This document shows, piece after piece, positions 9,925 to 58,010 of a stretch of DNA of 64,000 bases (its first letter is position 1; each line of letters begins with the position of its first letter). Under the pieces are notes generated by a model. The model did not search any database. It was not told the DNA's origin and worked only from the letters and a program-made list of their open reading frames with translations. Position numbers and translations under genes: made by a program. This DNA is from Zhongshania antarctica (GTDB lineage: Bacteria > Pseudomonadota > Gammaproteobacteria > Pseudomonadales > Spongiibacteraceae). The stretch covers positions 1-64,000 of the forward strand of contig NZ_JACHHW010000004.1 in NCBI RefSeq assembly GCF_014202945.1. Direction: 5' to 3'.

Positions 9925-12288
9925 ATGTTTAAACAAGGCTTTCTAGGGATAGTGCTGGTTGCAGTGCTGTATTTAATTGCCGGAAAGCTCGCACTTTTGC
10001 TGGCAATTCCTCCAGGTTATGCAACAGCAATTTGGCCTGCAGCCGGTCTCGCATTGGCTTTGTTGTTATTCAATGGTTACCACCTTTGGCCCGGCGTCCT
10101 GCTAGGTTCCTTTTTTGTCAATATTGATCTCGCTGGCTTTCAGAGTGAGGCTTGGGAAGAATTTTATCCCACGCTATGGCTTCCTCTTGTTGTTAGCATT
10201 GGCGCTAGCGTGCAAGCCGTTGTCGGGGTTTGGCTGCTGCGGCGTTTTGTTGGCTATCCCGCTGAGTTAGACACGGTTCAGTCTGTTTGGCGTTTTATTT
10301 TATACGGCTGTGGCATCGGTTGTATTCCTGGGGCAACAGTGGGGGCGTCGGCACTTTGGCTCACGGGGAAGCTCGCGACTGAGAATTATTGGTTTAACTG
10401 GTTCACCTGGTGGGTTGGTGATGGTCTGGGGGTCATGATATTCGCCACCCTGATGTTTGTTTTTTATGCGCAGCCCCGGGAGGTTTGGCGTAGTCGTAGC
10501 AGAATTTTACCCGCAGTTTTGCTCGGCGCGACGTTTGTTATTGTCAGCTTGTATGTTACTGCAAGTCGTTGGGAACTCGGTAGACAGCAAGCCGATTTTA
10601 ATGGTCGCAGTGAGCAGGTGTTTCAGCGCGCGCAATCGGTAATTGATGCGCATTTGGCTACCTTGTATTCGGTCCAAGGTTTGTTTGCAGCGTCTAAAGA
10701 GGTGACTCAAGCCGATTTTCGTGTGTTTGCAGACGGAATTTTGGCGCGGAATCCGGGTTTTCAGGCCGTAGCTTGGAATGTCAGGGTTGCGGGTGAGGGT
10801 CGCCAGTTGCTGGAGTCTCAGATGAGCGCTGAAATGCAGGCGCCCGTATTTATAACGCGGCGAGATGATAATGGTGAGTTGGTTCTTCAAGAAAAACACG
10901 ACGATTACGTTGTTATTCGCTACATTGAACCTTTGAACAAAAATTTAAGTGCTTTGGCCTATGATATTGGTTCGGCAGACCTTCCGCGTAAAGCTTTATT
11001 GCGTGCTGCGGATACTCGAGCGCCCGCGGTAACCGACCCCATTCGCCTTGTGCAAGAGAGCGGCAATCAGCAGGGTGTTGTTATTTACCTGCCGGTGAAT
11101 ATGTCTGCTAAAGGTGGCGATGATGTGCTGGCGGGTTATGTGTCTGGCGTATTTCGAGTTAAAGACCTTATGGGCTTTTTGCTGACGCCAGATTTTTTAC
11201 AGGGGGTGTCAGTGTCGGTTTTTGATGCCGCGGGGGGCGCCCTTTATCGTAGTGATAGCAATGACCCGCTGGGCCGAGGCGCATTGTTTGTTGAACGCAG
11301 AGTTTTGCGCGTTGCCGATCAAGAGTGGCTGTTCCAAGCAGACGCTAATCAGTCGTTTCTTGTCGGTACGCGGTCGGTGGTGCCGTGGGTGATGCTGGCA
11401 GCTGGTTTGCTGTTTACTGGTTTGCTAGGTATGTCGTTTTTGGTGCTAACGGGCCAAAAGCACCGATCTGAAGTGGTGGGTGATGAGCTTAAGTTCATGC
11501 TCGCCCAGTTGCAGGAGACCCAAGAGCACTTAGTTGAGGCGGAAAAAATGGCATCCTTGGGCGGCTTAGTGGCTGGGTTCGCCCACGAATTAAATACGCC
11601 GCTTGGCATCGCTATTACCGCTGAATCGACGCTGTCTGCAGATTTGCGGCGCTTGCATGAAATACTCCCGGCACAGAGTGAGCCGTCTATTGAGCTCTCT
11701 GAGTTACTGCAGCGTTTGCAAGAAGCGTCGCGCATTGTACTGGCTAATATACAGCGAGCCGGGAGCTTGATAAGTAGTTTTAAACAGGTGTCTGTAGATC
11801 AAGCGACGGCGGAGACCCGAGATATTAATTTATACGAATATCTAAGTGATGTGTTTGTGCACCTGTCGCCGAGTTATCGGCGTAGCGGCCACGAGGTGGT
11901 ATTGGACTGCCCGCGGACAATATCCTTGCGTACTGTGCCGGGAGGCTTAGCGCAGGTGGTTATTAATTTATTAAATAATAGTTTGATACATGCATTTTCT
12001 GAGGGTGAGCACGGCCGGATTTCCCTGACGGTTAGTCAGCATGAATCGGGTGTTAATTTGGTGTTTAGCGATAATGGTATCGGGATGGCGGCTGAGCATG
12101 CAAAGCAGGTTTTTGAGCCTTTTTTTACGACTCGCCGTGGATCTGGTGGTACCGGTTTGGGTTTGCACCTCGTCTACAATATTGTCCGGCAGCAATTGCA
12201 GGGGCAGATTAAGGTCAGTACGCAGATGGGGAGCGGGATGCATTTTGATATCGCGCTGCCGTTAGCGATCAATAAGTTTGTTGCGTAA
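9925..12288 (+). CDS. Orphan MASE1-CHASE sensor histidine kinase
   Basis: A 787-residue hybrid sensor. The N-terminal part (about 1-200) is a multi-helix MASE1 membrane domain with the characteristic GKLALLL...WPAAGLALALLL pattern and a WWVGDGLGV loop. A periplasmic CHASE domain follows (about 225-430), then another membrane helix (about 488-512). A short coiled coil leads to HisKA with H554 in AHELNTPLG, then HATPase with a DNGIGM box and GGTGLGLHLVYNIV. No receiver gene adjoins it. Its catalytic core closely resembles that of the kinase at 50471-52045, so it may talk to the receivers of that operon; this is inference. CHASE domains bind small ligands; which one here is unknown. Confidence 0.9.
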   Translation: MFKQGFLGIVLVAVLYLIAGKLALLLAIPPGYATAIWPAAGLALALLLFNGYHLWPGVLLGSFFVNIDLAGFQSEAWEEFYPTLWLPLVVSIGASVQAVVGVWLLRRFVGYPAELDTVQSVWRFILYGCGIGCIPGATVGASALWLTGKLATENYWFNWFTWWVGDGLGVMIFATLMFVFYAQPREVWRSRSRILPAVLLGATFVIVSLYVTASRWELGRQQADFNGRSEQVFQRAQSVIDAHLATLYSVQGLFAASKEVTQADFRVFADGILARNPGFQAVAWNVRVAGEGRQLLESQMSAEMQAPVFITRRDDNGELVLQEKHDDYVVIRYIEPLNKNLSALAYDIGSADLPRKALLRAADTRAPAVTDPIRLVQESGNQQGVVIYLPVNMSAKGGDDVLAGYVSGVFRVKDLMGFLLTPDFLQGVSVSVFDAAGGALYRSDSNDPLGRGALFVERRVLRVADQEWLFQADANQSFLVGTRSVVPWVMLAAGLLFTGLLGMSFLVLTGQKHRSEVVGDELKFMLAQLQETQEHLVEAEKMASLGGLVAGFAHELNTPLGIAITAESTLSADLRRLHEILPAQSEPSIELSELLQRLQEASRIVLANIQRAGSLISSFKQVSVDQATAETRDINLYEYLSDVFVHLSPSYRRSGHEVVLDCPRTISLRTVPGGLAQVVINLLNNSLIHAFSEGEHGRISLTVSQHESGVNLVFSDNGIGMAAEHAKQVFEPFFTTRRGSGGTGLGLHLVYNIVRQQLQGQIKVSTQMGSGMHFDIALPLAINKFVA

Positions 12289-12330: not shown

Positions 12331-12951
12331 TTATTTAGCTGCTGGTCTAAGCCCTTTTAGGACCAAGTCCATAGAGGCGGCAACATCGTCGGGGCTAATG
12401 CCGGGGGGCGGGCTGCTGAGGTGCTGATGAAAAAGGCCCGTAATATGAGAGCGGATATGATTGGTAATGCATTCGGGGCGGAGTTCAGATGTCACTAAGC
12501 CAGCCGTTTGCGCCTTTTCAATAAACCGCTGAATGTGCGCAAAGCTAATTTGTCGATTGCGTTCAATATGGGCGTTTAGGAGCGCTGTTTCGTCGCTGAG
12601 AGCGTAGCGCAGAATAAAGCGAGTAATTTGCGCTGCTGCCGGAGTGTTGTAGGTTCGGCTAAAGGCATCTACGACAACTTGTTTTAAGGTGTCTAGTGAG
12701 GGGGTGTCAGTCTCAGCTGTGTTGAGGGCTTCCATCGCCGCTTCAGTTGGTGCACTGACGCGGTCAATCATGGCGGCTATTAATGATTCTTTATCACTGA
12801 AGTGCCAATAAATCGCTCCTCGGGTTACGCCCGCTGATGAGGCGATGTCATCGAGCCGGGTTCTGCTAATACCTTGCTTGGCAAAGAGGTCCGCGGCGGC
12901 GTCTAATATGGAGCAGCGGGTAATTTCGGCGTCAGCCTTGGAGCGTCTCAT
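12331..12951 (-). CDS. TetR/AcrR-family repressor of efflux operon
   Basis: A 206-residue TetR-family regulator. The N-terminal helix-turn-helix (about 25-50) reads AKQGISRTRLDDIASSAGVTRGAIYWHF, close to AcrR, TtgR and NalC-type efflux repressors (quoted segment split here by position: 24-51). The C-terminal ligand domain is divergent, as usual. It is transcribed away from an RND efflux operon, and the gap between them contains a perfect inverted repeat whose core matches the known AcrR operator pattern. It therefore most likely represses both itself and the pump, with pump substrates as inducers. Confidence 0.92.
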   Translation of the reverse strand: MRRSKADAEITRCSILDAAADLFAKQGISRTRLDDIASSAGVTRGAIYWHFSDKESLIAAMIDRVSAPTEAAMEALNTAETDTPSLDTLKQVVVDAFSRTYNTPAAAQITRFILRYALSDETALLNAHIERNRQISFAHIQRFIEKAQTAGLVTSELRPECITNHIRSHITGLFHQHLSSPPPGISPDDVAASMDLVLKGLRPAAK

Positions 12952-12979
12952 GGCATTTTATATTCTTAGAAGTTTTTAG

Positions 12980-13025
12980 TTCAAGCACTTTACATACATG
13001 CGGGTATGTATGTAAAGTGCTTGAA
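12980..13025. promoter_or_regulatory. Perfect 20-bp inverted repeat: AcrR-type operator
   Basis: Two perfect 20-bp arms (12980-12999 and 13006-13025) flank a 6-base spacer. The core at 12991-13014 is TACATACAT-N6-ATGTATGTA, the same half-sites and spacing as the published E. coli AcrR operator. It sits exactly between the TetR-family gene and the RND operon. A TTTACA -35-like hexamer lies inside the left arm and its mirror image inside the right arm, so repressor binding would block promoters in both directions. The extra arm length beyond the TetR core could also form a hairpin in RNA. Confidence 0.93.
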
Positions 13026-13054
13026 TTATGGGAAGTCTCCGTCAGAGGTTGCAG

Positions 13055-14242
13055 ATGGTATTTGGTATTCAGTTCACCCCTCGTTCCTTAATGCCTGTGT
13101 TTGCGCTGCTGGCGGCGATATTTGCGGTGAGTGGCTGCGATGATCAGCCGCAAGCTGCGCTAGAGCGGCCTGCTGTTACAGTGAATGTGCTGCGGGCAGA
13201 AGCGCACGCGGTGCCTATTGGTGGCTTGTATCCCGGTCGCGCAATGGGCTCTAAGGAAGTGCAGATACGAGCGCGAGTTGAGGGAATCTTACTGCGTCGA
13301 ACATATACTGAAGGCCAGGCAGTGAAAGCCGGGCAGTTATTGTTTCAAATTGACTCTGCACCCTTTCAGGTGGCGCTTAATCGCAGCAAAGCGCAGTTGG
13401 CGCAGGCTAATGCAGGGCTATCGGCGGCGGCGCGGCGCTGGGAACGTGCTGGCGAGCTTATTAAGACCAATGCTATTAGTCGTCGTGAGCGCGATGACGC
13501 GGAGTCTGATCTAAATTTTGCAAAGGCGGCAGTGCAGCTTGCTGAAGCAGAGGTTGAGGCTGCGCAGATCAACTTGGATTACACTCAGGTGCGGGCGCCG
13601 ATTGCAGGTATGACGAGCCGTGAACAGCTATCAGAAGGCAGTCTCGTCGGGCCAGGGAATAGTTTACTCACTGAAATAACGCAGCTAGACCCGATACTCG
13701 TCAATGTTTCACTGCCAGATAAGCTGATGCTCAGTATTCGCCGAATGATTGAGCGTGGTGAAGTCGAGTTTGCCGAAGGCAAGCGCGAGGTGGAAATTAT
13801 TCTTGGGCCAGATGATACCTATCCGTATCTTGGGCATGTTGATTTTACCGAAAGCGCAATAGATAAAATGACGGGTACGGTTCAATTGCGGGCTACCGTA
13901 CCCAATCCCGATAGCAGTTTGTTGCCGGGTCAATTTTTGCGGGTGCGGTTGCACGGTTTGGTTAGTCTGCGATCTATTGTTGTACCCGCACGAGCTATTA
14001 TGCAGAGCGCTCAGGGTATTTATGTGTATCGTGTTGATAAGGATAATCGCGCGGAAATCGTAAATGTGACGCTGGGTTTGGAGTCAGAAGAAGGCGTCAT
14101 CATTGAATCCGGTTTAAGTGTTGCGGATCTCGTTGTTGTTGACGGCGTATCGAGGGTGCAGGCTGGTACATTGTTAGCGCCAACCGAAATAGTCGCTGAG
14201 GGCTCTGCCGACGCGCTTACTGTGGAGGGTAAAGCCCAGTGA
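13055..14242 (+). CDS. RND efflux periplasmic adaptor (membrane fusion) lipoprotein
   Basis: Periplasmic adaptor of an AcrA/MexA-type tripartite pump, 395 residues from this start. The signal peptide ends in a lipobox (AVSGC), so it is probably lipid-anchored to the inner membrane. Biotinyl-lipoyl halves flank an alpha-helical hairpin (roughly residues 90-170 with the RWERAGELIKTNAISRRE region), followed by beta-barrel and membrane-proximal domains. The ATG at 13055 is chosen because AGAGG lies 6 bases upstream; an in-frame ATG at 13028 abuts the operator repeat and has no ribosome site. The stop overlaps the RND transporter start by 4 bases. No outer-membrane channel gene is adjacent. Confidence 0.92.
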   Translation: MVFGIQFTPRSLMPVFALLAAIFAVSGCDDQPQAALERPAVTVNVLRAEAHAVPIGGLYPGRAMGSKEVQIRARVEGILLRRTYTEGQAVKAGQLLFQIDSAPFQVALNRSKAQLAQANAGLSAAARRWERAGELIKTNAISRRERDDAESDLNFAKAAVQLAEAEVEAAQINLDYTQVRAPIAGMTSREQLSEGSLVGPGNSLLTEITQLDPILVNVSLPDKLMLSIRRMIERGEVEFAEGKREVEIILGPDDTYPYLGHVDFTESAIDKMTGTVQLRATVPNPDSSLLPGQFLRVRLHGLVSLRSIVVPARAIMQSAQGIYVYRVDKDNRAEIVNVTLGLESEEGVIIESGLSVADLVVVDGVSRVQAGTLLAPTEIVAEGSADALTVEGKAQ

Positions 14243-17200
14243 GTGCGCGCTTTTTTATAGACCGGCCGGTATTGTCGATTGTTTTGTCCTTAATGATTTT
14301 ATTGGCCGGTGCCACCGCAATGGGGCGTTTGCCTATTGCCTTGTATCCAGAGTTTTTGCCACCAGAAATAGTTGTTACGGCAAGTTACCCCGGTGCTAAT
14401 GCTGAAACCTTAGCTGAAACCGTCGCGGCGCCGCTAGAGCAGCAAATTAATGGTGTAGACGGCATGCTGTATATGTCTACACAGGCGTCGAGTTCAGGTG
14501 TGGTGAGTATCAGCGTTGTTTTTGCCACCGGTACCGACCCCGATCAGGCCGCGATTAACGTTAGTAATCGCGTTGCCGTTGCCGAGAACCGGTTGCCAGA
14601 GGCGGTAAAGCGATTAGGTATTCAGGTCAGTAAGCGGTCGACCAGTATTTTGATGATCTACGCGCTAACCTCAGATAACCCCCAGTACGATGCAATTTAC
14701 CTGAGTAATTACGCATTATTAAATATCGTCGACGAGCTGCGCCGATTGCCCGGTATTGGCGATGCGCGCTTATTGGGCGCCAAAGACTATTCGATGCGAA
14801 TTTGGTTGCAGCCAGATCGTTTGGCTGAATTCGCCCTAACACCCGCCGATGTGGCGCGGGCGGTGAGCGAGCAAAACGCCAATTTTGCCGCTGGTAAATT
14901 TGCGGCTGAGCCCATGGTGAAGGAAGCGCCGTTTACTTACACCGTGACCACGCAGGGGCGGTTAGCGACGGTGGCGGAATTTGAGCACATCATTTTACGG
15001 TCAAGTAATTCTGGTGCCACGCTTCGTTTAGGTGACGTGGCGCGGGTGGAATTAGGGGCTAAAGACTACGCGTTTCAAGGGGCCTTTAATGGCCAACCGG
15101 CAGTTCCTGTTGCTATGTACCTGCAGCCTGGTGCGAATGCATTAGAAACGGGGGCTGAGGCGCAGGCGGTGCTAGCGGCAGTGCGGGAGAAACTGCCAGA
15201 GGGTGTTAATCTCGATCTCGCTTTTGATACGACGGTATTTGTCGAACACTCAATTAAAGAAGTGGTAGCAACATTTTTTGAAGCTCTGCTGCTGGTAGTG
15301 CTCGTCATGTTTTTGTTTCTGCAAAATGTGCGCGCAACAATTATTCCTCTGCTGGCGATTCCGGTATCGATCATAGGCACGTTTGCCGGTCTTTATATTG
15401 TTGGTTTTTCGATTAATTTGCTGACGCTATTCGGTCTTATTCTTGCCATCGGCATTGTAGTAGATGACGCTATTATCGTTATTGAAAATGTTGAGCGCAT
15501 CATGGAAGAGCAGCATGTCGATGCCAATACTGCAGTCAAACGGGCAATGGAGGAGGTGTCTGGACCTCTAATTGCTATTGTATTGGTGCTTTGCGCTGTA
15601 TTCCTCCCCGTTGTTTTTATGGACGGTCTTACCGGTGAGATGTACCGGCAATTCGCGGTTTCTATTTCGGTTTCCGTTATTTTATCGGGTATTGTTGCGT
15701 TAACACTGACCCCAGCATTGTGCTCTATGATGCTAAAAACCAAAGATCACAAACCGGCGGAACGTGGCTTTTTGGGTGGGTTTAACCGCGGGTTTAACGG
15801 CCTTCGCAACGGCTATGTATCGGCAACCAGCTGGGTGCTTAATCACCGAATATTGGGCTTGTTGATGTTTTCCGTCCTTATCGCTTCAACGTGGTTTTTG
15901 TTTCAAACTGTCCCGAAAGGTTTGGTGCCAGCAGAAGACCAAGGCTACGTCGTTATGGTGTACAAAACGCCGCCGGCAGCGTCGCTGTCACGTACGGTGG
16001 CGGTAACCGACCCGATGAATCAGCGCATTCTTAAGGAAGATGAAGTCAAAGGTGTGATGACATTTGCCGGCTTTGATATTTTGTCGTCTGCTCAGAAAAC
16101 CAACGCGGGCGTGTCGTTTGTTATGCTCAAAGATTGGTCTGAACGGCCAGAGGCGGCGCAAAGCTCTGTCGCAGTGGCGCAGCGCTTGCCACGCTTGGGT
16201 CACGACTTGCTGGATGGTGTGATGTTTGCGTTTAACCCGCCGCCAATTATTGGTTTAAGTACGACCGGTGGCTTTGAGTTGTATGTGCAAAACCGTGGCG
16301 ACAGTGATATGACGATCATGGCTGAGGAGTTAAATCGCTTTATTCAAAAAGCCAATGAGCAGCCGGAACTTCAGGGGGTGTACAGTACTTTCGATATTAA
16401 TACCCCACAGTATCGCCTGTTTTTAGATAGAGAAAAAGCGCTGAGTCTTGGCGTGCCGGTCGCCGATGTGTTCAGTACAATGCAGGCGACGTTTGGTAGC
16501 TTGTACGTAAATGACTTCACATTATTTGGTCGTAGTTTTCAGGTAAACCTGCAATCCGAAGAGGACTTTCGCGGCAGTCCGGAAGATTTAAGCAAAGTAT
16601 TTGTGCGCTCGGTGAGTGGTAATCTGGTTTCCTTGCGAACATTGTTGCGTGTCGAGCGGATTGTTGGCCCTGATGCGGTGAGCAGATTTAACGGTTTTCC
16701 GGCTGCCAAGGTGTTGGGTAATCCCGCGCAAGGTTACAGTTCCGGTGATGCTATTGCGGCGCTAGATCGCGTTGCGGCTGATATTCTGGGGCGTAATTTC
16801 ACCTTGGGGTGGGTGGGGAGCTCCTATCAAGAGAAGGCTTCTGGCGGCTCTGGTGGCCAGGCATTTGTTTTAGCGGTGTTGATGGTGTTCCTTATTCTCG
16901 CTGCGCAGTACGAGCGTTGGATGGTTCCTGCGGCGGTTATTTTGGCGGTACCTTTTGCGATATTAGGCGCAATTGCCGCAACGTGGATGCGAGGTCTGGA
17001 AAATGATATTTATTTCCAAATTGGCTTGGTGTGCTTGATCGGTTTGGCGAGTAAAAATGCCATTTTGATCGTGGAATTTGCGATGCAAAAGCAGCGTCAA
17101 GGTATGTCGCTCGCTGACGCTGCGGTAGATGCAATTCGCTTGCGTTTTCGTCCCATTGTAATGACGTCTTTAGCCTTTACGCTCGGCTGCTTGCCATTAG

Positions 17201-17355
17201 CACTGGCCAGTGGTGCCGGGGCGGGGAGTCGCGTTTCACTCGGTACGGGGGTTATCGGAGGTATGTTAGTGGCCACGTTTGTGGCGACGATATTTGTGCC
17301 TTTGTTTTACGTTTTGTTTGCTGGTCTAGGTGAGAAGTTCAAGCGCGCCAAATAA
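14239..17355 (+). CDS. RND efflux transporter, AcrB/MexB type
   Basis: A 1038-residue inner-membrane proton-driven multidrug exporter of the HAE-1 family. N-terminal FFIDRPVLSIVLS, the PGANAETLAETVAAPLEQQI porter motif and the TM4 proton-relay pair in VVDDAIIVIENVERI are all visible, as are the repeated 12-helix layout and two large periplasmic porter regions. Its start overlaps the adaptor stop, so the two proteins are made together. The operon ends here without an outer-membrane factor, so the pump must use a TolC/OprM-like channel coded elsewhere. Regulation is presumably by the divergent TetR-family repressor. The substrate cannot be told from sequence. Confidence 0.96.
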   Translation: MSARFFIDRPVLSIVLSLMILLAGATAMGRLPIALYPEFLPPEIVVTASYPGANAETLAETVAAPLEQQINGVDGMLYMSTQASSSGVVSISVVFATGTDPDQAAINVSNRVAVAENRLPEAVKRLGIQVSKRSTSILMIYALTSDNPQYDAIYLSNYALLNIVDELRRLPGIGDARLLGAKDYSMRIWLQPDRLAEFALTPADVARAVSEQNANFAAGKFAAEPMVKEAPFTYTVTTQGRLATVAEFEHIILRSSNSGATLRLGDVARVELGAKDYAFQGAFNGQPAVPVAMYLQPGANALETGAEAQAVLAAVREKLPEGVNLDLAFDTTVFVEHSIKEVVATFFEALLLVVLVMFLFLQNVRATIIPLLAIPVSIIGTFAGLYIVGFSINLLTLFGLILAIGIVVDDAIIVIENVERIMEEQHVDANTAVKRAMEEVSGPLIAIVLVLCAVFLPVVFMDGLTGEMYRQFAVSISVSVILSGIVALTLTPALCSMMLKTKDHKPAERGFLGGFNRGFNGLRNGYVSATSWVLNHRILGLLMFSVLIASTWFLFQTVPKGLVPAEDQGYVVMVYKTPPAASLSRTVAVTDPMNQRILKEDEVKGVMTFAGFDILSSAQKTNAGVSFVMLKDWSERPEAAQSSVAVAQRLPRLGHDLLDGVMFAFNPPPIIGLSTTGGFELYVQNRGDSDMTIMAEELNRFIQKANEQPELQGVYSTFDINTPQYRLFLDREKALSLGVPVADVFSTMQATFGSLYVNDFTLFGRSFQVNLQSEEDFRGSPEDLSKVFVRSVSGNLVSLRTLLRVERIVGPDAVSRFNGFPAAKVLGNPAQGYSSGDAIAALDRVAADILGRNFTLGWVGSSYQEKASGGSGGQAFVLAVLMVFLILAAQYERWMVPAAVILAVPFAILGAIAATWMRGLENDIYFQIGLVCLIGLASKNAILIVEFAMQKQRQGMSLADAAVDAIRLRFRPIVMTSLAFTLGCLPLALASGAGAGSRVSLGTGVIGGMLVATFVATIFVPLFYVLFAGLGEKFKRAK

Positions 17356-47808: not shown

Positions 47809-48651
47809 CTAGCGTTCAAAGGGCTCGCCAATGCTCACAACCTCAGGGCCATCAAATTGCATTTTGGCTTTGCGGATGGATAAACTAAACAGAGGCTTTT
47901 TAGGTAGACCGAGATTGCGCAATACCATTGCTAGCGGGTGTTTTTCACCGATCTCAGGCTCTTGTCCGCCCAGTTTGAAACTTAAGCCCTCGCCTTCGGT
48001 AATGCCAATCGTTTTCCAGGCCTGTTTGTTGCGAATTGCCAAGGACGGTGCTCGCTGCGGTTTGGCGATGGTCTTGCCGCCTGTTGGCGCGCTAATACTG
48101 AAAACGGCATGACCTTCGTCATGAAACTGCGCAAAGGCAGTTTTCGGCCCAAAATCAATGTCGACGTGACAAACCCATTTTGGAAAGCCCCAGATAAAAC
48201 GCCCAGCATGAGTGGTAAAGTCTTGATTGACGGGCATGCGGTAGACAAAATTGCCAAGTTGGCCGCGCATCATTCGGCTTAACGCACCAAAAAATGGTAT
48301 TGGCTTGCGTTCGCCGGGCGTGGTTACCGGAAAAACAATGGCGGCTTCGTTGTAGTCGCCTAAATCGTTTTCTCGGTAGTCGACGGCGAGCAATTGCATG
48401 AGCGCCTTGCCGGGCAGTATTTCAACAACCTTAAATCCGCTGTCGGCAATGAGTGCTTGCGCTTTAGCGGCATTGACCGTAAACACATTCATGAGCATGG
48501 CGGCGTTGTTTACAGTGACGGGTAAGGTGACGGTCTGCCCGTTTATTTGATATTCCCGCGCGTTGGTTTTACTGCATAAGGTGTCTGTTACTTGGTCTTG
48601 CTCGGCAGTGCTAACGGGCTGCTCAGCGTATAAGATGCGGGTATCCTGCAT
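47809..48651 (-). CDS. Acetoacetate decarboxylase family protein
   Basis: A 280-residue protein of the acetoacetate decarboxylase fold. The candidate Schiff-base Lys is in WGFPKWVCHVDI (about residues 153-164), and a Glu in GDYNEAAIVFPV corresponds to the active-site acidic residue. In clostridial decarboxylase two adjacent Lys follow the Pro; here the second is Trp, so the chemistry may differ (aldolase-dehydratase or hydrolase variants are known). ATG at 48651 is preferred because GGAG lies 9 bases upstream; an in-frame ATG five codons earlier has no such site. It converges with marC and diverges from the UbiB-like gene. Confidence 0.8.
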   Translation of the reverse strand: MQDTRILYAEQPVSTAEQDQVTDTLCSKTNAREYQINGQTVTLPVTVNNAAMLMNVFTVNAAKAQALIADSGFKVVEILPGKALMQLLAVDYRENDLGDYNEAAIVFPVTTPGERKPIPFFGALSRMMRGQLGNFVYRMPVNQDFTTHAGRFIWGFPKWVCHVDIDFGPKTAFAQFHDEGHAVFSISAPTGGKTIAKPQRAPSLAIRNKQAWKTIGITEGEGLSFKLGGQEPEIGEKHPLAMVLRNLGLPKKPLFSLSIRKAKMQFDGPEVVSIGEPFER

Positions 48652-48817
48652 TGGCCATGACTCCATTATTATAAGTTTGTTAGTGTGTTGGTATTTGAAC
48701 TGAAGGTGACAAGTAATAGAAGTGTAACTTACAGCGCGACACTATCTGATTACAATGGTGTTACTTTGATCGACAGCATTATTTTTCGGGCACTGGCCCG
48801 CAGAGGATTAAGGAAAA

Positions 48818-50185
48818 ATGGCTAAAAAGCTTTCCAGTAGCGTCAGGGAAAAGGTGATGCAGGCCGCATCGAAGACGAAATTTTTAAGTGCCGCGGCCGA
48901 TACCTCCGGTCGCCGCATCAGCTTGGCAGAGTTTGGTCTGAGGGGGTCGTGGCGGGTATTGCAGACAGCGTCGGCAGTCTCCCCTAGGGCGCTAAAATGC
49001 CTATTGCGCCGCCGTAAACCAAGCCCGCGGGAGCTGCGCGAGCTTTTTGAAGATTTAGGGGCCACCTATATTAAGTTCGGTCAGTTTATTGCGAGTTCAC
49101 CATCAATCTTTCCAAAGGAATACGTAGACGAGTTCCAGCTTTGTCTAGATCAAACCCCGTCGCTGCCTTTTAATAAAATAAAACAGATCATCGAAGATGA
49201 TCTTGGCCAGTCCATCGCCGAGGTGTTTGCTTATTTTGATGAGAATGCCTTGGCGTCGGCCTCTATTGCACAGGTTCATGCAGCGCGCTTGGTCACCGGT
49301 GAAGACGTTGTGGTTAAAGTGCAAAAGCCGGGTGTACAGGCAATTTTAACGACAGATATGAATGCGGTATACCTGTGTATTCGTTTGTTTGAATTGATTC
49401 TACCCAATACCGACAAAGACGCCGTAGCGGGTTTGGTGGAAGAAATGTACCAATCCATGATCGACGAGTGCGATTTTTATAAAGAAGCAGAGAATCTAAC
49501 GCAGTTTCGGGCCTTCTTGCTGCAAAGTGGCAATAGCCATGTGGTTGCGCCAAAGCCCTATAGTCAGGCCTCGTCACGAAAGGTGCTCACAATGGAGCGC
49601 TTGTATGGCACTGCGCTGAATAATGATATGGCGAAGGGCGAGGCGGGGTTTGATCCAGCTAACAGCCTGTTCAATGCGCTCAATACGTGGTTTGCAAGCC
49701 TGACCCAATGTGCGTTTTTTCATGCCGACTTGCACAGTGGCAATTTACTGCTGCTCAATGACGGCAGAGTCGGATTTATTGATTTTGGTATGGTGGGTCG
49801 TATTCAGCCTGAGGCGTGGCAGGCTATATTTAGTTTATTCATGGCGATTAGTGAACAAAACTATGAGCTGATGGCGCAATCGATGATTAGTGTCGGGATT
49901 ACCCGTGAGGTAGTCGATGAAGCCGCGTTGACCCGAGATATTCGTAATTTATTTGATGGCCTAAATGCCTTGGATCCTCAGAAGGTTCTTGAAAACAAGC
50001 AAGCTGATGGTATTACCTCATTGTTGAGTGAATTAGGTGATATTGCCCGAACCTACGGTATTCGCTTTCCCCGGGCCTTCACGATGCTATTAAAACAGTT
50101 TCTGTATTTTGATCGCTATATGGAGCTGTTGGCGCCTGGCGCCGACATTTTCCAAGATGACAGAGTCGATTTTTATTTGCAGTGA
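48818..50185 (+). CDS. ABC1/UbiB-family atypical kinase
   Basis: A 455-residue member of the ABC1/ADCK/UbiB family. The KxGQ signature is in YIKFGQFIASSPSIFP. The Ala-rich nucleotide loop (ASASIAQVHAARL), catalytic Lys (VVVKVQKPG), the HADLHSGN catalytic loop and the DFGMVG metal motif are all intact. Family members act in ubiquinone biosynthesis or lipid metabolism and have ATPase rather than protein kinase activity. It lacks the C-terminal membrane helices of E. coli UbiB and is not next to ubiE/ubiJ, so it is an accessory paralogue. AAGGA precedes the ATG. Confidence 0.88.
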   Translation: MAKKLSSSVREKVMQAASKTKFLSAAADTSGRRISLAEFGLRGSWRVLQTASAVSPRALKCLLRRRKPSPRELRELFEDLGATYIKFGQFIASSPSIFPKEYVDEFQLCLDQTPSLPFNKIKQIIEDDLGQSIAEVFAYFDENALASASIAQVHAARLVTGEDVVVKVQKPGVQAILTTDMNAVYLCIRLFELILPNTDKDAVAGLVEEMYQSMIDECDFYKEAENLTQFRAFLLQSGNSHVVAPKPYSQASSRKVLTMERLYGTALNNDMAKGEAGFDPANSLFNALNTWFASLTQCAFFHADLHSGNLLLLNDGRVGFIDFGMVGRIQPEAWQAIFSLFMAISEQNYELMAQSMISVGITREVVDEAALTRDIRNLFDGLNALDPQKVLENKQADGITSLLSELGDIARTYGIRFPRAFTMLLKQFLYFDRYMELLAPGADIFQDDRVDFYLQ

Positions 50186-50470
50186 TGCCATTCTGCGAGC
50201 AATCTAGCTTGGGGCTTTCGCGATGATATCGCCTTAGCCCGCATCTTCGTCAAACATCCTAATAATACGGAAAGATCATTCTAAGGTTCCCTGAAATCAA
50301 TGACTTCGGTGCATTGCCGGCGCTTTTTGTAAGTAGATGACACTATTTTATATACAGGCGTATAGGCAGTACAGTTAGTCTATCTTCAGTCTGTTGCAGT
50401 TGAGTCGCACTTAAGCGGCTTATCTGTGTTAAGTGCCACTGGAAAGGGGTTTTTATGTACTGTTATTGGA

Positions 50471-52045
50471 ATGACGACTGAATTGCGCCGTTTTTTAGTT
50501 ACAACGAGCTTTGATCGTAAACTTGCATGGTCGCTAATTGTCAGCACCTTTATGGTTGGTGGCTTGATTGTCGGCATGTGTGTGCTTTTGGCGGTAAATG
50601 TATCGAACGCCAGCCGCCATGAAAAATACTCTGTCATAGCGGGCTTGCTAGGGAAAATGCTTGAGCAGGGTGACGTAAACGCCCTTGAGTCGGCGATGGA
50701 TAAGGTAGCGCTAGACAGTAGTATTGCCGCGGTTTGTGCGTATTCTGGCGCGTCAGAAACAAAACTGTTGTACATGTATCAAGCGGATCGGGGAGGGATA
50801 ACGTGCCTCCCAGAGTTACCTACTTTGTCAAAAAATGATTTTCATGTTGTGGTGCCGAGTGCGCGACACGATGGTTTACGGCTGGTGCTGCGTACCAATA
50901 ATCATTACTTAAGTGACTATATTCACTCTATTTGGTGGTTGGCGATATTAATGATGCTGGCCAGTGCGCTCTTTGCCTTCGGTTTTTCCTCTTGGTTGGG
51001 ACGACAACTACTGCTGCCAATAGTGAGTTTGCTCAAGGTTATAGGCTTAGTCCGTCTTAATAGAGATTATCGTTTACGCGCAGATAAGTTTGCCGACGAT
51101 GAATTTGGTCAACTTTGCGATAATTTTAATGACATGATTGCTGATGTCGAGCGTCGTGATCAAGAAGTGCTGAGTGCGCGTAGAGAGCTAGAATTGCGAA
51201 TTTGTGAGGTTGATGTCAGTAATCGTGAATTGAGTGGCACTTTACAACGTCTAAAGCAGACGCAGCAGCAACTCATAAATACCGAAAAGATGGCTTCCCT
51301 TGGTGCCTTAGTTGCCGGTGTCGCCCATGAAATAAATACGCCAATTGGCGTTGGAGTAACGGCTGCGTCGACCTTACAGGCTAATACCGAAAATGCCAAA
51401 GCGCGATATGATCAGGGCGACTTAACACAGTCGGCGTTGCGTCTATATTGGGAGCAAACCGTGTCGGCAACTCAGATGATTTTAGGCAATCTTGAGCGGG
51501 CGGCCGGTTTAATTCAAAGCTTTAAGCGTGTGGCGGTGGATCAGAGTAACAGTGAGATTAGACGCTTTAATCTTGGCGAGTATTTGGGCGAGGTAATGCA
51601 CAGCCTCTACCCGCAAGTCAGGAAAGCTGGACTGAATTACGCCCTAGAATGTGATGAGGAATTGATCGTTCGCTCTTATCCGGGCGCTATATCGCAAATA
51701 GTGACAAATTTAGTCATGAATGCAATCAGCCACGCCTATCCAAATGGCGAAGCAGGTAATTTGACATTGAAGGTTTGGGCATCAGAAACTGGGGAAATAT
51801 CGCTGCAGTTTAACGATGACGGCAGAGGAATTCCCGCGGAACATTTGGCGAGAGTTTGCGACCCCTTCTTCACAACTAAGCGGGGTAGTGGCGGCAGTGG
51901 CCTGGGTTTACATATTGTGTATAACTTGGTAACTCAGCAGCTTTGCGGGCGAATCAAAATTGACAGTGAAGTGGGCAAGGGTAGCTGCATAAGCCTCTTC
52001 TTTCCCCCGGACGTCGCTAAGGTAGGTTTGTATGAGTCAGTTTGA
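50471..52045 (+). CDS. Membrane sensor histidine kinase of four-gene signalling operon
   Basis: A 524-residue kinase. Membrane helices near residues 20-45 and 155-178 enclose a small periplasmic domain of about 110 residues. A HAMP-like linker is at about 180-235, then a coiled coil, HisKA with H286 in AHEINTPIG, and HATPase with DDGRGI and GGSGLGLHIVYNLV. ATG at 50471 is preferred over the in-frame TTG at 50426; the latter lies before AAAGGGG. A tiny 8-codon frame (50454-50480) with a good ribosome site overlaps this start and could couple translation. Its stop overlaps the next gene by 14 bases. The catalytic core is close to that of the orphan kinase at 9925-12288. Confidence 0.9.
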   Translation: MTTELRRFLVTTSFDRKLAWSLIVSTFMVGGLIVGMCVLLAVNVSNASRHEKYSVIAGLLGKMLEQGDVNALESAMDKVALDSSIAAVCAYSGASETKLLYMYQADRGGITCLPELPTLSKNDFHVVVPSARHDGLRLVLRTNNHYLSDYIHSIWWLAILMMLASALFAFGFSSWLGRQLLLPIVSLLKVIGLVRLNRDYRLRADKFADDEFGQLCDNFNDMIADVERRDQEVLSARRELELRICEVDVSNRELSGTLQRLKQTQQQLINTEKMASLGALVAGVAHEINTPIGVGVTAASTLQANTENAKARYDQGDLTQSALRLYWEQTVSATQMILGNLERAAGLIQSFKRVAVDQSNSEIRRFNLGEYLGEVMHSLYPQVRKAGLNYALECDEELIVRSYPGAISQIVTNLVMNAISHAYPNGEAGNLTLKVWASETGEISLQFNDDGRGIPAEHLARVCDPFFTTKRGSGGSGLGLHIVYNLVTQQLCGRIKIDSEVGKGSCISLFFPPDVAKVGLYESV

Positions 52046-53006
52046 CGGAAACGGTAACGACAAGTTGCAATTTGCTGCGGAATCGACGGCGACCTTGTTA
52101 GATAGTGTTTTCGAGCCATGGAAACTGTTGTTGGTTGACGACGAAAAAGTCGTCCACTCGGTGACTCGTTTAGCCTTGGAGGGATTTGAATTGGCGGGGC
52201 GTGGTTTACAGTTTATTAGTGCCTATTCTGCTGAAGACGCGCGGGCGCTACTTGCTCAACACGATGATATCGCCTTAATCCTACTTGACGTGGTAATGGA
52301 GACCGACCATGCCGGGCTTGATCTGGTGCACTATATTCGTCGTGAATTAAATAATAAGTTTGTGCGCATTGTATTGCGTACCGGACAGCCCGGACAGGCC
52401 CCAGAGCTGGAAGTAATAACCCAATACGACATAAATGATTATAAAGAAAAAACAGAGTTAACGAGACAGAAGCTCTTTTCAACCGTGTACACCAGTTTGT
52501 GTTCCTATCGAGATTTGATGGCCATAGAGAACAATCGGTTAGGTCTGTTGAAAGTGATTGAGGCTTCTGCCCATATTTTTGAACGTCGTAATTTGGCTGC
52601 GTTTGCTGAAGGTGTTTTGCAGCAGCTAACCGCGTTACTTTATTTAAACAAGCATGCCATGTTAGTACAGACCTGTGGAATGCTGGCTCGGCCGGCAAGC
52701 GACTCATTAAATATACTGGCGGCTACCGGTTGCTACTCAGATTTTCAAGGAACAGTAGAGATTTCAGCGTTTGATAGCGACGTTGGTGATCGAATAAGCA
52801 CGGCAATTAAACAGCGCTCGAGCAACTATGGTGATAATTACTGGGTGAGCTACTATATTACCGAATCAGGTATGGAGCAGCTGCTGTATGTGTCGGCGAA
52901 GGACGTGTTTTCAATTCCGGATATTGCGATGATTGAATTGTTTGTAAGAAACGTTGCAATAGCCCACGAGACAATCGCTCTGCTGGAGTCGAATAAGCAT
53001 GACTAA
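52032..53006 (+). CDS. REC-DUF3369 response regulator without output domain
   Basis: A 324-residue protein: receiver domain at about 30-160 with acidic pair D36/D37, phospho-acceptor D86 (ILLDVVME), the [11 protein letters not shown] loop and a Lys in [12 protein letters not shown]3369-type sensory domain covers about 165-324. In most known proteins DUF3369 is followed by GGDEF, HD-GYP or another output; here the protein simply ends. Output may be through the GGDEF-EAL protein three genes later. It overlaps the kinase by 14 bases upstream and the next receiver gene by 8 bases downstream. Confidence 0.88.
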
Positions 53007-54228
53007 TACCAATAGCAAAAAAATTCCAGATAAAATGGCAGGTAATGATGAGCTTATTCTGGCAAGCGAGCAAAGTACTATGCTGACACAGGATTCGGCG
53101 ACAACAGCCAAGAATGCGTGGAAAGTCCTCATTGTTGATGATGAGGAGGAAATACATGTAGTCACCCGTTTGGCACTTCATGACTTTAGTTTTGGTGGTC
53201 GCCATTTGGAATTTGTTAGCGCCTACTCTGGTGAGCAAGCGAGACAGATGATTCAGGAAAATCCTGACACGGCGATTATTTTGCTCGACGTCGTTATGGA
53301 AACTGATAGTGCCGGCTTGGATGTGGCGAGGTTTATTCGTCAAGAAATTGGTAATCATTTTGTACGCATTATCCTGCGTACTGGTCAGCCAGGTTTGGCG
53401 CCAGAGCGTAGAGTGTTAAAAGTTTACGACATTAATGATTACCGGGCAAAAACTGAATTAACCCAAGATCGTCTCTTTTCGGTTATTTATACCGCGCTAT
53501 CGTCTTACCGAGATTTAATTGCATTGGCGAGAAGTCGCCACCAACTTATTGGTTTGGTCAACGAGATTGAACAACTCTCACATTTGGCGGCTCGAGATTT
53601 GCAAATGCCGCTGAACGAAGTGGTTGGCGCAATGCGTAAAATTGGCGCTAGGGTAAATGAGCTTCCACCAACAGGTTTAGCCGAAGAATTTCTCGATATC
53701 CGCGAAAATGTCTATGCGATGCAGTCGGCTTTAAATAAGTTAGTCGCGTTGACGTCGGTTGGTCGCTTTAATGAAAATCGAGAAATGGTTGACTGTAACT
53801 CTGTTGTTAGTGACGTGCTGCTGAATTTGGACAGTGAGTTTCAGACAAGTCACGCCAATTTACACTGCGAAACGCTGCCAACGGTTTTTGTTTGCCGACG
53901 CCAGTTAATTCAGCTATTTCAAAATTTGATTAGCAACGCGATTCGCTACTCCGAAGGCAAGCCCCCTGAAATTTATATCAACGCGACAACACATGAGCGG
54001 AATTGGGTTTTTTCAATCAGCGATGCCGGTATTGGCATTGCGCCAGAGCATCACAGCGGATTATTTAATTTGTTTCACCGCGACAGTGGAGAGGGTGCGG
54101 TTAAAGAGTCTGGGGTTGGCTTGGCTATTTGTGAAAAAATAGTGCGTTGGCACGGTGGAAAAATTTGGTTGGAATCTGAACTTGGCAAAGGTTCTACGTT
54201 TTACTTTACTATCCCCTTGGCGGAATAG
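52999..54228 (+). CDS. Receiver plus degenerate histidine kinase
   Basis: A 409-residue protein with an N-terminal receiver (about 42-165; D47/D48, phospho-acceptor D97, T128, K151) and a C-terminal kinase module. The dimerisation helix reads [14 protein letters not shown], which aligns with the ASHDLQEPL box of phytochrome-type kinases but has R199 in place of the phospho-accepting His. The HATPase domain keeps its N-box ([12 protein letters not shown]), DAGIGI and [11 protein letters not shown]. It should bind ATP but not autophosphorylate in the usual way. Its receiver is very similar to that of the preceding gene, which points to a tandem duplication. It lies 9 bases before the GGDEF-EAL gene. 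Confidence 0.88.
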
Positions 54229-54237
54229 GAAAAAATA

Positions 54238-55887
54238 ATGCGAGCAGAATTAGTGCTTAACAATCTTTCACACAGTCTTTTTTGTGTGGATCTTAATGGT
54301 CGCATTACGTATGTCAATGCAGCCACTAAATTGCTAACCGATCTCCCATTAATGGATTTGTTAGGTCAAAATTTGGCCGAAGTACTGCCTTTTGTTACCG
54401 TGCTAAACGGCCGATCTTTAAGCGAGCAGTTAGTTGGCATCGGTCATTATGGCAAGCCTCTGTTAGTTGCACTGGCGTCAAATAGTGAAAATCGCTATTT
54501 AGCGTCAGTGTCTGATGTACTTGATGACGATGGCAGTAAAATTGGCTGCAGCGTCGCAATTGCCAATGCGAATAACCAGGAAGAACTATTTGGTGACGGT
54601 GAGAATGGCCTTGATCCACTCACTGAACTAATGGGCCGAAAGGAATTTGAGCGGCGATTGGCCAATCTTGTTAATGACGCGGCGACAAGTTCTCGTACCC
54701 ACGCTTTGCTCTACATCGACATAGATCAGTTTAAGCTAATTAACGATACCAGCGGCCATGTGTCTGGTGATAATTTAATTAAAAATATTGCGCAGGCTTT
54801 GCATTTAGAACTCTTTACCGGTGATATGTTGTGTCGCTTGGGTGGTGATGAGTTTGGTGTTTTACTAAGTAATGTCGACACCTTTGAGGCCCGCTCTGTC
54901 GCGAATCGCCTGGTGAAGGCGGTGAAGCGAATGACCTTTATGTGGAGTGGTATTACGCATAAAGTGTCTATTAGTATCGGTGTGGTATTAGTGGACGAGT
55001 ACTCCCTAGATCGCGAAGCGGTGATGAGCCAAGCTGATGTGGCGATGTATTCAGCTAAAGAAGATGGTCGTGGTCGGGTGCATGTTTACGATACCCAGGA
55101 TAAGAAGCTTAGTCGCTTACACGATGACATGGATTGGGTACATAGAATTAATAAGGCGCTAGCGGCCGATGATTTTTGTCTGGTAACCGAGCGAATCTTG
55201 CCGTTGGTTGATGAGAATAAGCGCACGACCTTGTATAACGAGTTATTGGTTCGCATGCGTTATAACGGTGAAATACTTAGTCCAGGCCAATTTATGCCCG
55301 CGGCTGAGCGCTTTGGTTTAATGCCTCAGATTGACCGCTGGGTAATTAAAAGCTTCTTCAATTATTTACAGCGTAATCCCGAGCTAAACACGCAGAATGT
55401 AATGTATTCCATTAATATTTCTGGCCAGTCCCTGTGTCAGGAGTCATTTTTAGAGTTCGTTTACCGCTGCTTACGTCGCAGCACGGTGAACCCGGAAATC
55501 ATCTGTTTTGAAATTACTGAAACCGTGGCAATAACGAACTTCTCGGTAGTGACTCGCTTTATTCATCGGGTGCATGAGTTGGGCGGGAAATTTGCGCTAG
55601 ATGATTTTGGTACGGGAATGTCGTCTTTTGGCTATCTACAAGAACTGCCAGTAGATTTTGTGAAGATCGATGGGCTTTTTGTCCACGATATGGACAAAAA
55701 CCCCGTTCACGAGGCCATGGTGCGGTCAATAAATGACATAAGCCATGTACTGGGAAAGAGAACGATAGCGGAGTTTGTGGAACGGCAGGAAATTATGGAT
55801 CAGCTCCGCGCTTTGGGGGTTGACTACGCCCAAGGACATTTACACGGCAAGCCACAAGACTTGCGAGACTTACAGGACGTAGCGTAG
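54238..55887 (+). CDS. PAS-GGDEF-EAL cyclic-di-GMP enzyme
   Basis: A 549-residue cytoplasmic protein with an N-terminal PAS domain (about 1-112), a GGDEF diguanylate cyclase domain (about 125-285) and an EAL phosphodiesterase domain (about 300-545). The cyclase signature R-L-GGDEF is intact at 200-206. The RxxD inhibitory site is missing because F193 stands where Arg should be. The EAL motif is E335-L-L-V-R, and DDFGTG plus the downstream Lys and Glu are present, so both activities are possible. It is the last gene of the kinase-receiver-receiver operon and is its most likely output. Confidence 0.92.
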   Translation: MRAELVLNNLSHSLFCVDLNGRITYVNAATKLLTDLPLMDLLGQNLAEVLPFVTVLNGRSLSEQLVGIGHYGKPLLVALASNSENRYLASVSDVLDDDGSKIGCSVAIANANNQEELFGDGENGLDPLTELMGRKEFERRLANLVNDAATSSRTHALLYIDIDQFKLINDTSGHVSGDNLIKNIAQALHLELFTGDMLCRLGGDEFGVLLSNVDTFEARSVANRLVKAVKRMTFMWSGITHKVSISIGVVLVDEYSLDREAVMSQADVAMYSAKEDGRGRVHVYDTQDKKLSRLHDDMDWVHRINKALAADDFCLVTERILPLVDENKRTTLYNELLVRMRYNGEILSPGQFMPAAERFGLMPQIDRWVIKSFFNYLQRNPELNTQNVMYSINISGQSLCQESFLEFVYRCLRRSTVNPEIICFEITETVAITNFSVVTRFIHRVHELGGKFALDDFGTGMSSFGYLQELPVDFVKIDGLFVHDMDKNPVHEAMVRSINDISHVLGKRTIAEFVERQEIMDQLRALGVDYAQGHLHGKPQDLRDLQDVA

Positions 55888-56275
55888 ACCTATTGTCGGG
55901 GCGTTAGCAGGCTCTCTTACTAGCCAGGTAGATGCTGCATGCGCTTATCGCCATGGCATCCGGGATTGATGTGGCCCTATTGTGGAAAAAACGCAGGTTT
56001 GGGCCATAGAGCATTGTCTGCAGTCATGTTATAAGATTATGGTATTAAATTAAGCTGGCACTGAGAGTTTGTTGGTTTTTTAAGAAGTACATGACTTTTG
56101 GCTGATTTTGCAGTGAAATTGCAGGTAATTTCGTTAATCTATTGGTTTTTCGGCGTTTTATTGGGCCTCTAGCGCAGTTGGCGTCATCTTAAGTCAGCGT
56201 CTCGAAGATCGATTACTGTTTTACAGCAGTGTTGTTGATAAACTCTGTGTGTGGTTTAGATGAATAGGGCAAATT
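55888..56275. other. Intergenic region before patatin-like gene
   Basis: A 388-base gap. I see no gene, no hairpin terminator of quality after the GGDEF-EAL gene, and no clear operator. A tRNA-like phrase at 56163-56182 does not extend into a cloverleaf. The promoter for the patatin gene presumably lies in the AT-rich part (56020-56160). Confidence 0.45.
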
Positions 56276-57769
56276 GTGAAGAAACTAGAGAATAAGCTGC
56301 GGCTTTCAACGAGCTATGAAGAGTGGAAAGCGCTAGCGAAAGAGCATGATCGCTGTTCTGGTAGAGAGCATTGGAAGAAAATTGATAAAACCAGTCTCTA
56401 TGATTATGCGTCAATTCGATCGCGCTTGGAGCGGCTGCGTTATTTTCGAGAGAACAACGATAATATCGGTCTGCTCTTTTCCTTGAATGAAGGTATTCAT
56501 GGCAATATGGGCGGGATGGGTAAGCCCGTTCTGTACGCTAGGGCGAAATTTGGCACCAAACAGCTGGTGCACGATTATGTGGATGCCATAAGTGATTCAC
56601 TTGATCATCTAGCCCAGCTTGACTCAGATCACCCCAATTTTCTCGAGCGATTGGATTTCTTTAGACGAGCGAGTAAATGCTACGGTAAATCGGCGTTAAT
56701 GCTGAGCGGTGGCGCGGTGCTCGGTAATTTCCACGTTGGTGTTGTCAAAGCCTTGGTAGAACAGGATTTGTTGCCGGAAGTTATTTCTGGTGCGAGTGCT
56801 GGGTCAATGATTGCCGCGGTATTGGGTACGCGGACAGATGAAGAGTTAAAACATTTTCTTGATGTGGATAATTTGGGCAAGGTGTTGCTGACTGAGGTTG
56901 CCTTGGTTAATGGTCGTTTGTCTGAGTCCTCGCCGCGGATTAATCATCAGCTATTAAAAGAAAAAATCGCTAAACTGATTCCTGACATTACCTTTCAAGA
57001 GGCCTTTGAGCGCACCGGGCGCCATATTAATATTTCCATTTCGCCCTCCGATGTGCATCAGACATCTCGGCTTTTGAATGCAATAGCTTCTCCCAATGTT
57101 TATATTCGTAAAGCGGTGCTAGCGTCCTGCGCTGTTCCCGGAATTTATCCGCCCGTCATGCTTGAAGCTAAAAATGTGCACGGCCACCCCCAGCCTTACC
57201 TTGCTACTCGGCGTTGGATTGACGGTTCGGTAAGTGACGATCTTCCTGCCAAGCGGCTCGCTCGTCTGTATGGTGTGAACCACTTTATTGTCAGCCAGAC
57301 CAATCCTATTGTGTTGTGGGCTGTCCATGATGCCAAAGCTGAAAATAGCGGTTTAATGCCTGCACTACGTCAGTTAGGTGGGCGCAGCCTTAAGGAAGTC
57401 TCTAAAGTCGGTAGCAGCGTCGCGAGAAAGTACTTCAAAAATTCTCCTCGGGTGCGGCGGATTGCCAATATTGTTTATTCCGTTATTAATCAAGAGTACA
57501 CCGGCGATATTAATATTATTCCTCGATACCGCTTTTTTGACCCCCGCAAGCTATTGACCGAACTGAAACCGGATGAATTACAGTTTTTTATACTTGAGGG
57601 TGAGCGGGCGACTTGGCCTAAGTTGGAAATGATTCGCGCGAGTACGAAGATAAGCCGAAAGCTCAGTCAGATACTGGAAGTTTATGAGGCGGAGGAGTTT
57701 AGTCGGCTAGCTCAGGCCAAGCCCCATCATCTCGGTGCGGAAATTACTCGCAATCAGGTTCGCGCTTAA
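56276..57769 (+). CDS. Patatin-like phospholipase with DUF3336
   Basis: A 497-residue lipid acyl hydrolase. The N-terminal about 130 residues match DUF3336, which precedes the patatin domain in fungal triacylglycerol lipases and bacterial relatives. The catalytic dyad is S174 in GASAGSMIAA and D316 in DGSVSDDLP; the oxyanion motif GGAVLGNFHVG is near 143-153. There is no Sec signal, so it is either cytoplasmic/membrane-associated or exported otherwise. The GTG start has only a weak AGGG site. A strong terminator follows. Confidence 0.9.
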   Translation: MKKLENKLRLSTSYEEWKALAKEHDRCSGREHWKKIDKTSLYDYASIRSRLERLRYFRENNDNIGLLFSLNEGIHGNMGGMGKPVLYARAKFGTKQLVHDYVDAISDSLDHLAQLDSDHPNFLERLDFFRRASKCYGKSALMLSGGAVLGNFHVGVVKALVEQDLLPEVISGASAGSMIAAVLGTRTDEELKHFLDVDNLGKVLLTEVALVNGRLSESSPRINHQLLKEKIAKLIPDITFQEAFERTGRHINISISPSDVHQTSRLLNAIASPNVYIRKAVLASCAVPGIYPPVMLEAKNVHGHPQPYLATRRWIDGSVSDDLPAKRLARLYGVNHFIVSQTNPIVLWAVHDAKAENSGLMPALRQLGGRSLKEVSKVGSSVARKYFKNSPRVRRIANIVYSVINQEYTGDINIIPRYRFFDPRKLLTELKPDELQFFILEGERATWPKLEMIRASTKISRKLSQILEVYEAEEFSRLAQAKPHHLGAEITRNQVRA

Positions 57770-57815
57770 GTACTTTCGGGGCCGTATACGGTCTGCTTAG
57801 GTCGCTTTGCTTTAC

Positions 57816-57850
57816 ACAAACCCCAGTAGAAATACTGGGGTTTGTTGTTT
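57816..57850 (+). terminator. Intrinsic terminator after patatin-like gene
   Basis: A perfect 13-bp stem ACAAACCCCAGTA/TACTGGGGTTTGT with a GAAA tetraloop (57829-57832), followed by a T-rich tail to 57850. It ends the patatin transcript. Confidence 0.93.
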
Positions 57851-57980
57851 CTGGGTTTGATACAAGGCAGCTTCTCTATTCGGGCGTTTGAGTTCGGTAT
57901 AGGCTGTGCTGAAGAAACTGGCGGTATAACGTAAGTTGCCTCGCGCGTAATTCTGGTCGCTAGTTTTTGATCGTGATAAA

Positions 57981-58010
57981 GGTATACTGCCTTATACCGT
58001 GGGGGGTATA
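57981..58010. promoter_or_regulatory. Three phased half-sites, candidate CsoR-family operator
   Basis: GGTATA (57981-57986), TATACC (57993-57998) and GGTATA (58005-58010) repeat at exact 12-base steps with 6-base spacers. The second spacer is G-rich (GTGGGG), so the right-hand pair reads TATACC-GTGGGG-GGTATA. A/T flanks around a G-tract are typical of CsoR/RcnR/CstR-family operators. It sits about 65 bases before the YeeE/YedE genes. The persulfide-sensing CstR branch is attractive because the genes are of the sulfur-transport family; no regulator gene is in the window. Confidence 0.65.

Follow-up and report, generated by a model that had tools for sequence, protein, structure and literature searches.

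In DivL of Caulobacter a Tyr stands in place of the phosphoacceptor, and PAS domains lie ahead of the kinase core. The protein has been termed a pseudokinase which acts with DivK and CckA through protein contact (review, available in part). Rec-controlled histidine kinases (Rec-HKs) are described as frequent, and their activation was explained only recently by means of the prototype LvrB from Leptospira, in which His161 is autophosphorylated and the phosphate then goes to LvrC (PMC13269768, available in part). In the YfiBNR system cyclic di-GMP (c-di-GMP) is controlled through periplasmic YfiR, with YfiN as the cyclase (source available in part). The present report concerns four adjacent genes, P1 to P4, on a stretch of 64,000 nucleotides of Zhongshania antarctica DNA (the window; contig NZ_JACHHW010000004.1, positions 1 to 64,000), where a Rec-HK without the usual acceptor is encoded beside a c-di-GMP enzyme. 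The genome is 3.85 Mb in size, and the set is composed as follows:

50471..52045, + strand: P1, histidine kinase of 524 aa (open reading frame (ORF) call, Pfam)
52032..53006, + strand: P2, REC-DUF3369 response regulator with no output domain (ORF call, Pfam)
52999..54228, + strand: P3, Rec-controlled histidine kinase of the order REC - signalling helix - DHp - CA, in which the usual phosphoacceptor is missing (Pfam, alignment, model, Foldseek)
53593..53595, + strand: codon of P3 Arg199, which occupies the position of the H-box His (31-row Rec-HK alignment, DNA)
54238..55887, + strand: P4, PAS-GGDEF-EAL protein, PAS from residue 5, closest solved relative PA0861 (Pfam, structure match)

The explanation favoured here, to which an even chance is given, is that P3 comes from a working Rec-HK whose acceptor was lost in the ancestor of the sampled Spongiibacteraceae, and that it now serves as a phospho-responsive pseudokinase switch for P4. 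The conserved, derived signalling unit itself, a Rec-HK signalling variant with a c-di-GMP partner, is real; its mechanism, as read from the letters, is a proposal.

A preliminary description of the stretch had joined these genes, with two receivers and a c-di-GMP enzyme, into one operon, and ORF calls and Pfam bear out the positions and domains: P1 and P2 overlap by 14 bases, P2 and P3 by 8, and a gap of 9 bases precedes P4, a spacing from which one operon, read as a single transcript, is probable. The description also knew of no system with this exact set, and none was found in the open full-text literature searched, whose texts were available in part and which mostly leaves subscription journals outside. 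In those texts DUF3369 appears in company with REC and HD-GYP, with nothing resembling the four genes. HmrABCX of Caulobacter was considered as the same system and rejected, as HmrB is a putative HPt and not alike (source available in part).

The missing H-box His of P3

In the Pfam search P3 matches HATPase_c (6.1e-27) and, below the cut-off of 30.2 bits, Response_reg (1.6e-06, 28.7 bits), with no HisKA row; a PAS row is absent at E up to 1, so that the PAS domains which precede the kinase core in DivL have no counterpart here. The H-box reads ARDLQMPL in P3 versus SHDLQTPL or similar in most of the compared Rec-HKs. In an alignment of 31 rows the H-box His is missing from all 19 Spongiibacteraceae orthologues of P3 (Arg in 18, Asp in 1) and present in 12/12 other Rec-HKs, namely all 10 matches from another order, L074 (genome G411) and L076, a paralogue in the sister-genus genome G001. 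His-less and His-bearing proteins form the two sides of one branch of the tree (support 98/96); on the His-bearing side L074, L076 and L089 are flagged as long branches. The Asp, Thr and Lys of REC are kept in every one of the 19 orthologues, and so are the N-box Asn, G1 and G2 motifs of the ATP site. P3 thus has the architecture of a Rec-HK, a phosphorylatable REC and an intact set of N, G1 and G2 motifs, and lacks the phosphoacceptor His of DHp. These residues mean that the acceptor was lost while the needs for receiving phosphate and for binding ATP were kept. With Arg199 in the position of the H-box His, the "kinase-dead partner" of the preliminary description holds good as far as sequence can say.

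The conservation of P3 is uneven along the chain. In an alignment (A1) of 15 of the 17 genus orthologues, the other two of which were added in the 31-row alignment, mean identity is 0.95 in the linker, 0.88 both in REC and in the Arg-bearing DHp helix 1, 0.77 in CA and 0.57 in DHp helix 2; genome G020 is represented by locus L015 in the P3 alignments and tree. Among the four proteins P3 is the best conserved in each of the 12 other genus loci which hold all four.

The structure model of P3 (17 rows) comprises REC, a long helix, a helical hairpin and CA. Its best solved-structure match is LvrB (Foldseek E 8.1e-17), and the DivL structure 4q20 is among the matches. P3 shares with LvrB the order REC, signalling helix, DHp and CA, and differs from it by Arg at the H-box place, where LvrB has the acceptor His161 (source available in part). 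With DivL it has in common the replaced phosphoacceptor and the kept CA core; DivL, however, regulates the kinase CckA, whereas P3 has a REC of its own and sits with a GGDEF-EAL enzyme.

A kept ATP site without the His would also fit a different role for P3, in which it would be a Rec-Bergerat switch akin to anti-sigma factors or serine kinases and would have some protein besides P4 as its target. LvrC, termed a putative anti-sigma factor of Rec-Bergerat type (PMC13269768, available in part), would be the model for it. Such a role is very improbable, because the DHp hairpin is kept in the model, P3 fits HATPase_c far better than HATPase_c_2 (0.0023), and P4 comes next after P3 in 17/17 genus loci.

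Conservation, erosion and the likely parent module

The family sample holds 21 genomes, the window's own included, 18 of which belong to one genus according to the tool used. Orthologues of P3 were found in 17 of these 18 and in 2 of the 3 sister-genus genomes, the third of which is 70% complete. P4 is present in the same 17 genus genomes, always directly after P3, and its checked GGDEF and EAL motifs are intact in all 17. The order of all four genes, whose check in relatives had been called for, is kept in 13/18 genus genomes (P3-P4 in 17/18), and the order ABC1-P1-P2-P3-P4 in 13/17 of those bearing P3, window included; because of this the arrangement is not due to chance. The surroundings are as follows:

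48818..50185, + strand: ABC1 family protein, conserved left flank, outside the module (Pfam, genus loci)
56276..57769, + strand: DUF3336-patatin, right flank, outside the module, kept in 14/17 genus loci (Pfam, genus loci)

Genes named cysH, DHODH and ABC1 by the analysis precede the module in 17/17 loci, and in L032, L034 and L036 about 6 kb were covered without a patatin gene being found. Only G015 among the genus genomes lacks P3 and P4 at the cut-offs used; its ABC1 and patatin genes lie about 230 bases apart, an empty site due either to loss of the module or to its never having been gained.

In the remaining four P3-bearing genomes the set is reduced. G013 has a REC-only remnant of P2 (a 204-aa frame), G020 has no P2, and G014 and G018 hold P3-P4 only, with the REC residues of P3 intact. 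P1 is shortened to 405-409 aa in G010, G011 and G020, where neither HAMP nor a sensor domain was found, and in G016 it has an open frame of 513 aa, though one search match carried one stop. The stable unit is P3-P4, and the input side erodes. The idea of a unit of four genes therefore survives for the 13 genomes with the kept order and fails for the four in which P1, intact P2 or both are missing; an indivisible four-gene relay is rejected, since P1 is absent, or P2 absent or reduced, in 4/17. It is rather unlikely that P3 is inert, or a phosphate buffer, and that P4 is run by its own PAS domain in an operon merely shared: P4 does have such a domain and contact between the two proteins is hypothetical, yet within the genus P3 shows the highest conservation among the four, and it remains beside P4 where P1 and P2 have gone.

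In an order-wide search (1e-75) P3 was found in 10/244 genomes and 2/112 genera, none beyond the window's family, with up to 7 candidates scored per genome, and a class-wide search (1e-50, 370 genomes, up to 5 candidates scored per genome) gave one further full-length match, in G276; with so few candidates scored in each genome, weaker full-length relatives would go unseen. One such weaker match, of 30% identity, is listed for G002. A plasmid collection returned 3220 records, all below 60% identity, the best-ranked among the matches listed having 37%; two of its loci were looked at and are included in no count.

The two sister-genus loci (L042, L050) are larger: they carry a TonB-dependent receptor, YfiR (DUF4154), a CHASE8 kinase, REC-DUF3369, a His-less Rec-HK and a GGDEF-EAL protein. 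In another order 10 Rec-HK matches were obtained in 9 of 85 genomes searched, their loci being read from matched coordinates and not from ORF calls. Six of the ten (L072, L092, L094, L097, L099, L100) have the receptor, YfiR, kinase, REC-DUF3369 and a Rec-HK which keeps its H-box His; CHASE8 is matched in 6/6 of their kinases and in 2/2 of those of the sister genus. L098 has no REC-DUF3369, its stretch stopping just past the Rec-HK, and in L093, L095 and L096 the kinase alone stands beside the Rec-HK. No P4-like gene directly adjoins the Rec-HK in any of the 10 loci; in L095 some 1.2 kb separate the Rec-HK from a protein matching GGDEF. A single-domain REC gene follows directly 3' of the His-bearing Rec-HK in L072 (10159-10635 +) and L092 (about 9322-9789 +), and could possibly be the next relay step of the ancestral module.

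These six loci of the other order likely show the parent module, i.e. TonB receptor, YfiR, CHASE8 kinase, REC-DUF3369 and Rec-HK with His, and together with the sister-genus loci they mark the four-gene set as derived from a larger module and in part eroded. The unit is thus wider than the four genes first proposed, the likely ancestral module adding the receptor and YfiR. Most simply, the loss of His and the gain of GGDEF-EAL both took place on the way to the Spongiibacteraceae ancestor, in an order which cannot be told. The six loci and both sister-genus loci resemble YfiBNR in that YfiR lies beside a CHASE8-sensor kinase; they differ from it by a histidine kinase in place of the YfiN cyclase and a TonB receptor in place of YfiB (source available in part). 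The window locus departs further, being without YfiR and without a receptor; the set is flanked by intergenic stretches of 285 and 388 bases, too short for a YfiR (DUF4154) gene. No description of the TonB receptor-YfiR-CHASE8 kinase-DUF3369-Rec-HK module was found in the open literature searched, which was available in part.

The paralogous locus L076 (6845-12208 +) has a Rec-HK with intact His, then a kinase and then, by eye, hydrogenase-subunit-like genes, possibly a hydrogen-sensing system.

Input, output and the proposed mechanism

Pfam assigns EAL (2.7e-58), GGDEF (5.8e-39) and PAS (1.6e-06) to P4 and finds no receiver domain in it at E up to 1. Residues 2-539 match the solved chain 5xgb of PA0861 (E 2.7e-113), a Pseudomonas aeruginosa protein which we take to be RbdA. 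Both are PAS-GGDEF-EAL proteins matching over nearly the whole length; P4 differs in that it starts directly with PAS and is encoded beside a Rec-pseudokinase.

P1 matches HATPase_c (2.3e-23), with HAMP and HisKA below gathering scores, and keeps His286 of DHp (codon 51326-51328) and the HATPase motifs. Hydrophobic stretches are seen by eye at its N-terminus. The sensor region is weak against all models tried: Pfam calls no CHASE8 there, and residues 16-228 reach 59.8 bits against NCBIfam NF053592 HK_near_YfiR_like, below the cut-off of 194. Elsewhere in the same genome (contig C1, L077 8628-12741 -) an orphan set of TonB-dependent receptor, YfiR and CHASE8 kinase is found; this kinase is 47% identical to P1 across residues 71-515, and no receiver protein matching P2 or P3 was seen in the 19-kb stretch. 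P2, the sole DUF3369 match in the genome (1.8e-39; Response_reg 2.8e-07), keeps Asp86 and the Thr and Lys of REC. In G016 a REC-DUF3369-like protein of 330 aa (54% to P2) has as its neighbour a protein of 804 aa that matches GGDEF-EAL (L080 6159-9850 -). One more kinase of the window is of interest:

9925..12288, + strand: orphan MASE1-CHASE histidine kinase, DHp/CA related to P1 (co-occurrence, domain search)

It has no adjoining receiver gene and is present in the same 17/21 family genomes as P4, including the two without P1, a co-occurrence which alone suggests it as a possible alternative phosphate donor; because a single genus genome lacks both, the pattern offers a lead rather than a test.

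In the mechanism proposed, autophosphorylation would take place in P1, or in some other kinase whose DHp is alike, and, judging from the intact residues and the spacing, the phosphate would pass to Asp97 of P3 and Asp86 of P2. By homology to LvrB, phosphorylation of REC would rearrange the P3 dimer in its signalling helix and DHp/CA core. The constant pairing of P3 and P4 suggests that the ATP-bound core, having no His to phosphorylate, may bind P4, probably near PAS, and that this binding may set its balance of cyclase and phosphodiesterase. P2 would be a dispensable competitor or phosphate sink, and no evidence supports placing it ahead of P4, as had been supposed. The earlier word "phosphorelay" says too much: lacking a His in the customary position, P3 has nothing there from which phosphate could travel further, and an allosteric final step is more likely. 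Somewhat short of an even chance is given to a bolder reading, in which P3 is a pseudokinase driven by its receiver and its ATP-bound core, dead for phosphorylation, acts directly as the gate of a GGDEF-EAL enzyme; P3 would then be in effect a response regulator whose ex-kinase output serves purely as allosteric adaptor.

Several observations weigh against the favoured explanation. Adjacency and co-inheritance of P3 and P4 fit mere co-regulation too. The flanking ABC1 and patatin genes are at least as conserved as P3, and P2 slightly surpasses P3 in conservation in the sister genus (54 and 52% versus 51 and 48%). The sister-genus GGDEF-EAL proteins (L042 9202-10440 +; L050 5959-7080 -) have neither of the checked GGDEF and EAL motifs (0/2); they are 25 and 30% identical to P4, with orthology resting on position. 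The Gln of the PA0861 stretch "aqpivpl" is Glu in P4, so that even phosphodiesterase activity is not certain, and a net phosphodiesterase is a guess by analogy. The P3 model is modest (mean predicted local distance difference test (pLDDT) 64.4, predicted template modelling score (pTM) 0.44), and its whole-chain overlay on LvrB is poor (template modelling (TM) score 0.33, root-mean-square deviation 20.7). The main loophole for P3 as a pseudokinase is His195. Present without exception in the 17 genus rows, it precedes Arg199 by four residues, or one helical turn, and might be the phosphoacceptor in a shifted position. If this or another residue were the new acceptor, P3 would still be a kinase in a relay from P1 through P3 to some receiver, in agreement also with its intact checked CA motifs. 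This is improbable: sister-genus orthologues have Gln or Glu at the place of His195, and the gene next after P3 in the 17 genus loci is P4, free of a receiver, unlike the two other-order loci where a single REC gene does follow the Rec-HK.

Within 48000-58000 no Rfam family was found at gathering score, and a known RNA such as a riboswitch is rejected there. Pattern scans gave 9 promoter-like and 4 terminator-like sites versus shuffle means of 10.9 and 6.4; being no commoner than in shuffles, they are rejected as promoter or terminator evidence. Further along the window (12331-17355) a TetR-like gene is divergent from a pair of genes which, by eye, resemble an RND efflux adaptor and pump.

Meaning of the locus

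The pseudokinase switch proposed for P3 draws its interest from a natural clade in which the acceptor has been lost while REC and the ATP site are kept; it would split conformational output from chemistry and tie the former to an enzyme of c-di-GMP turnover. Which parts are dispensable is seen from the natural series of reductions that ends in P3-P4, and the locus points to a wider module of TonB receptor, YfiR, CHASE8 kinase, DUF3369 protein and Rec-HK.

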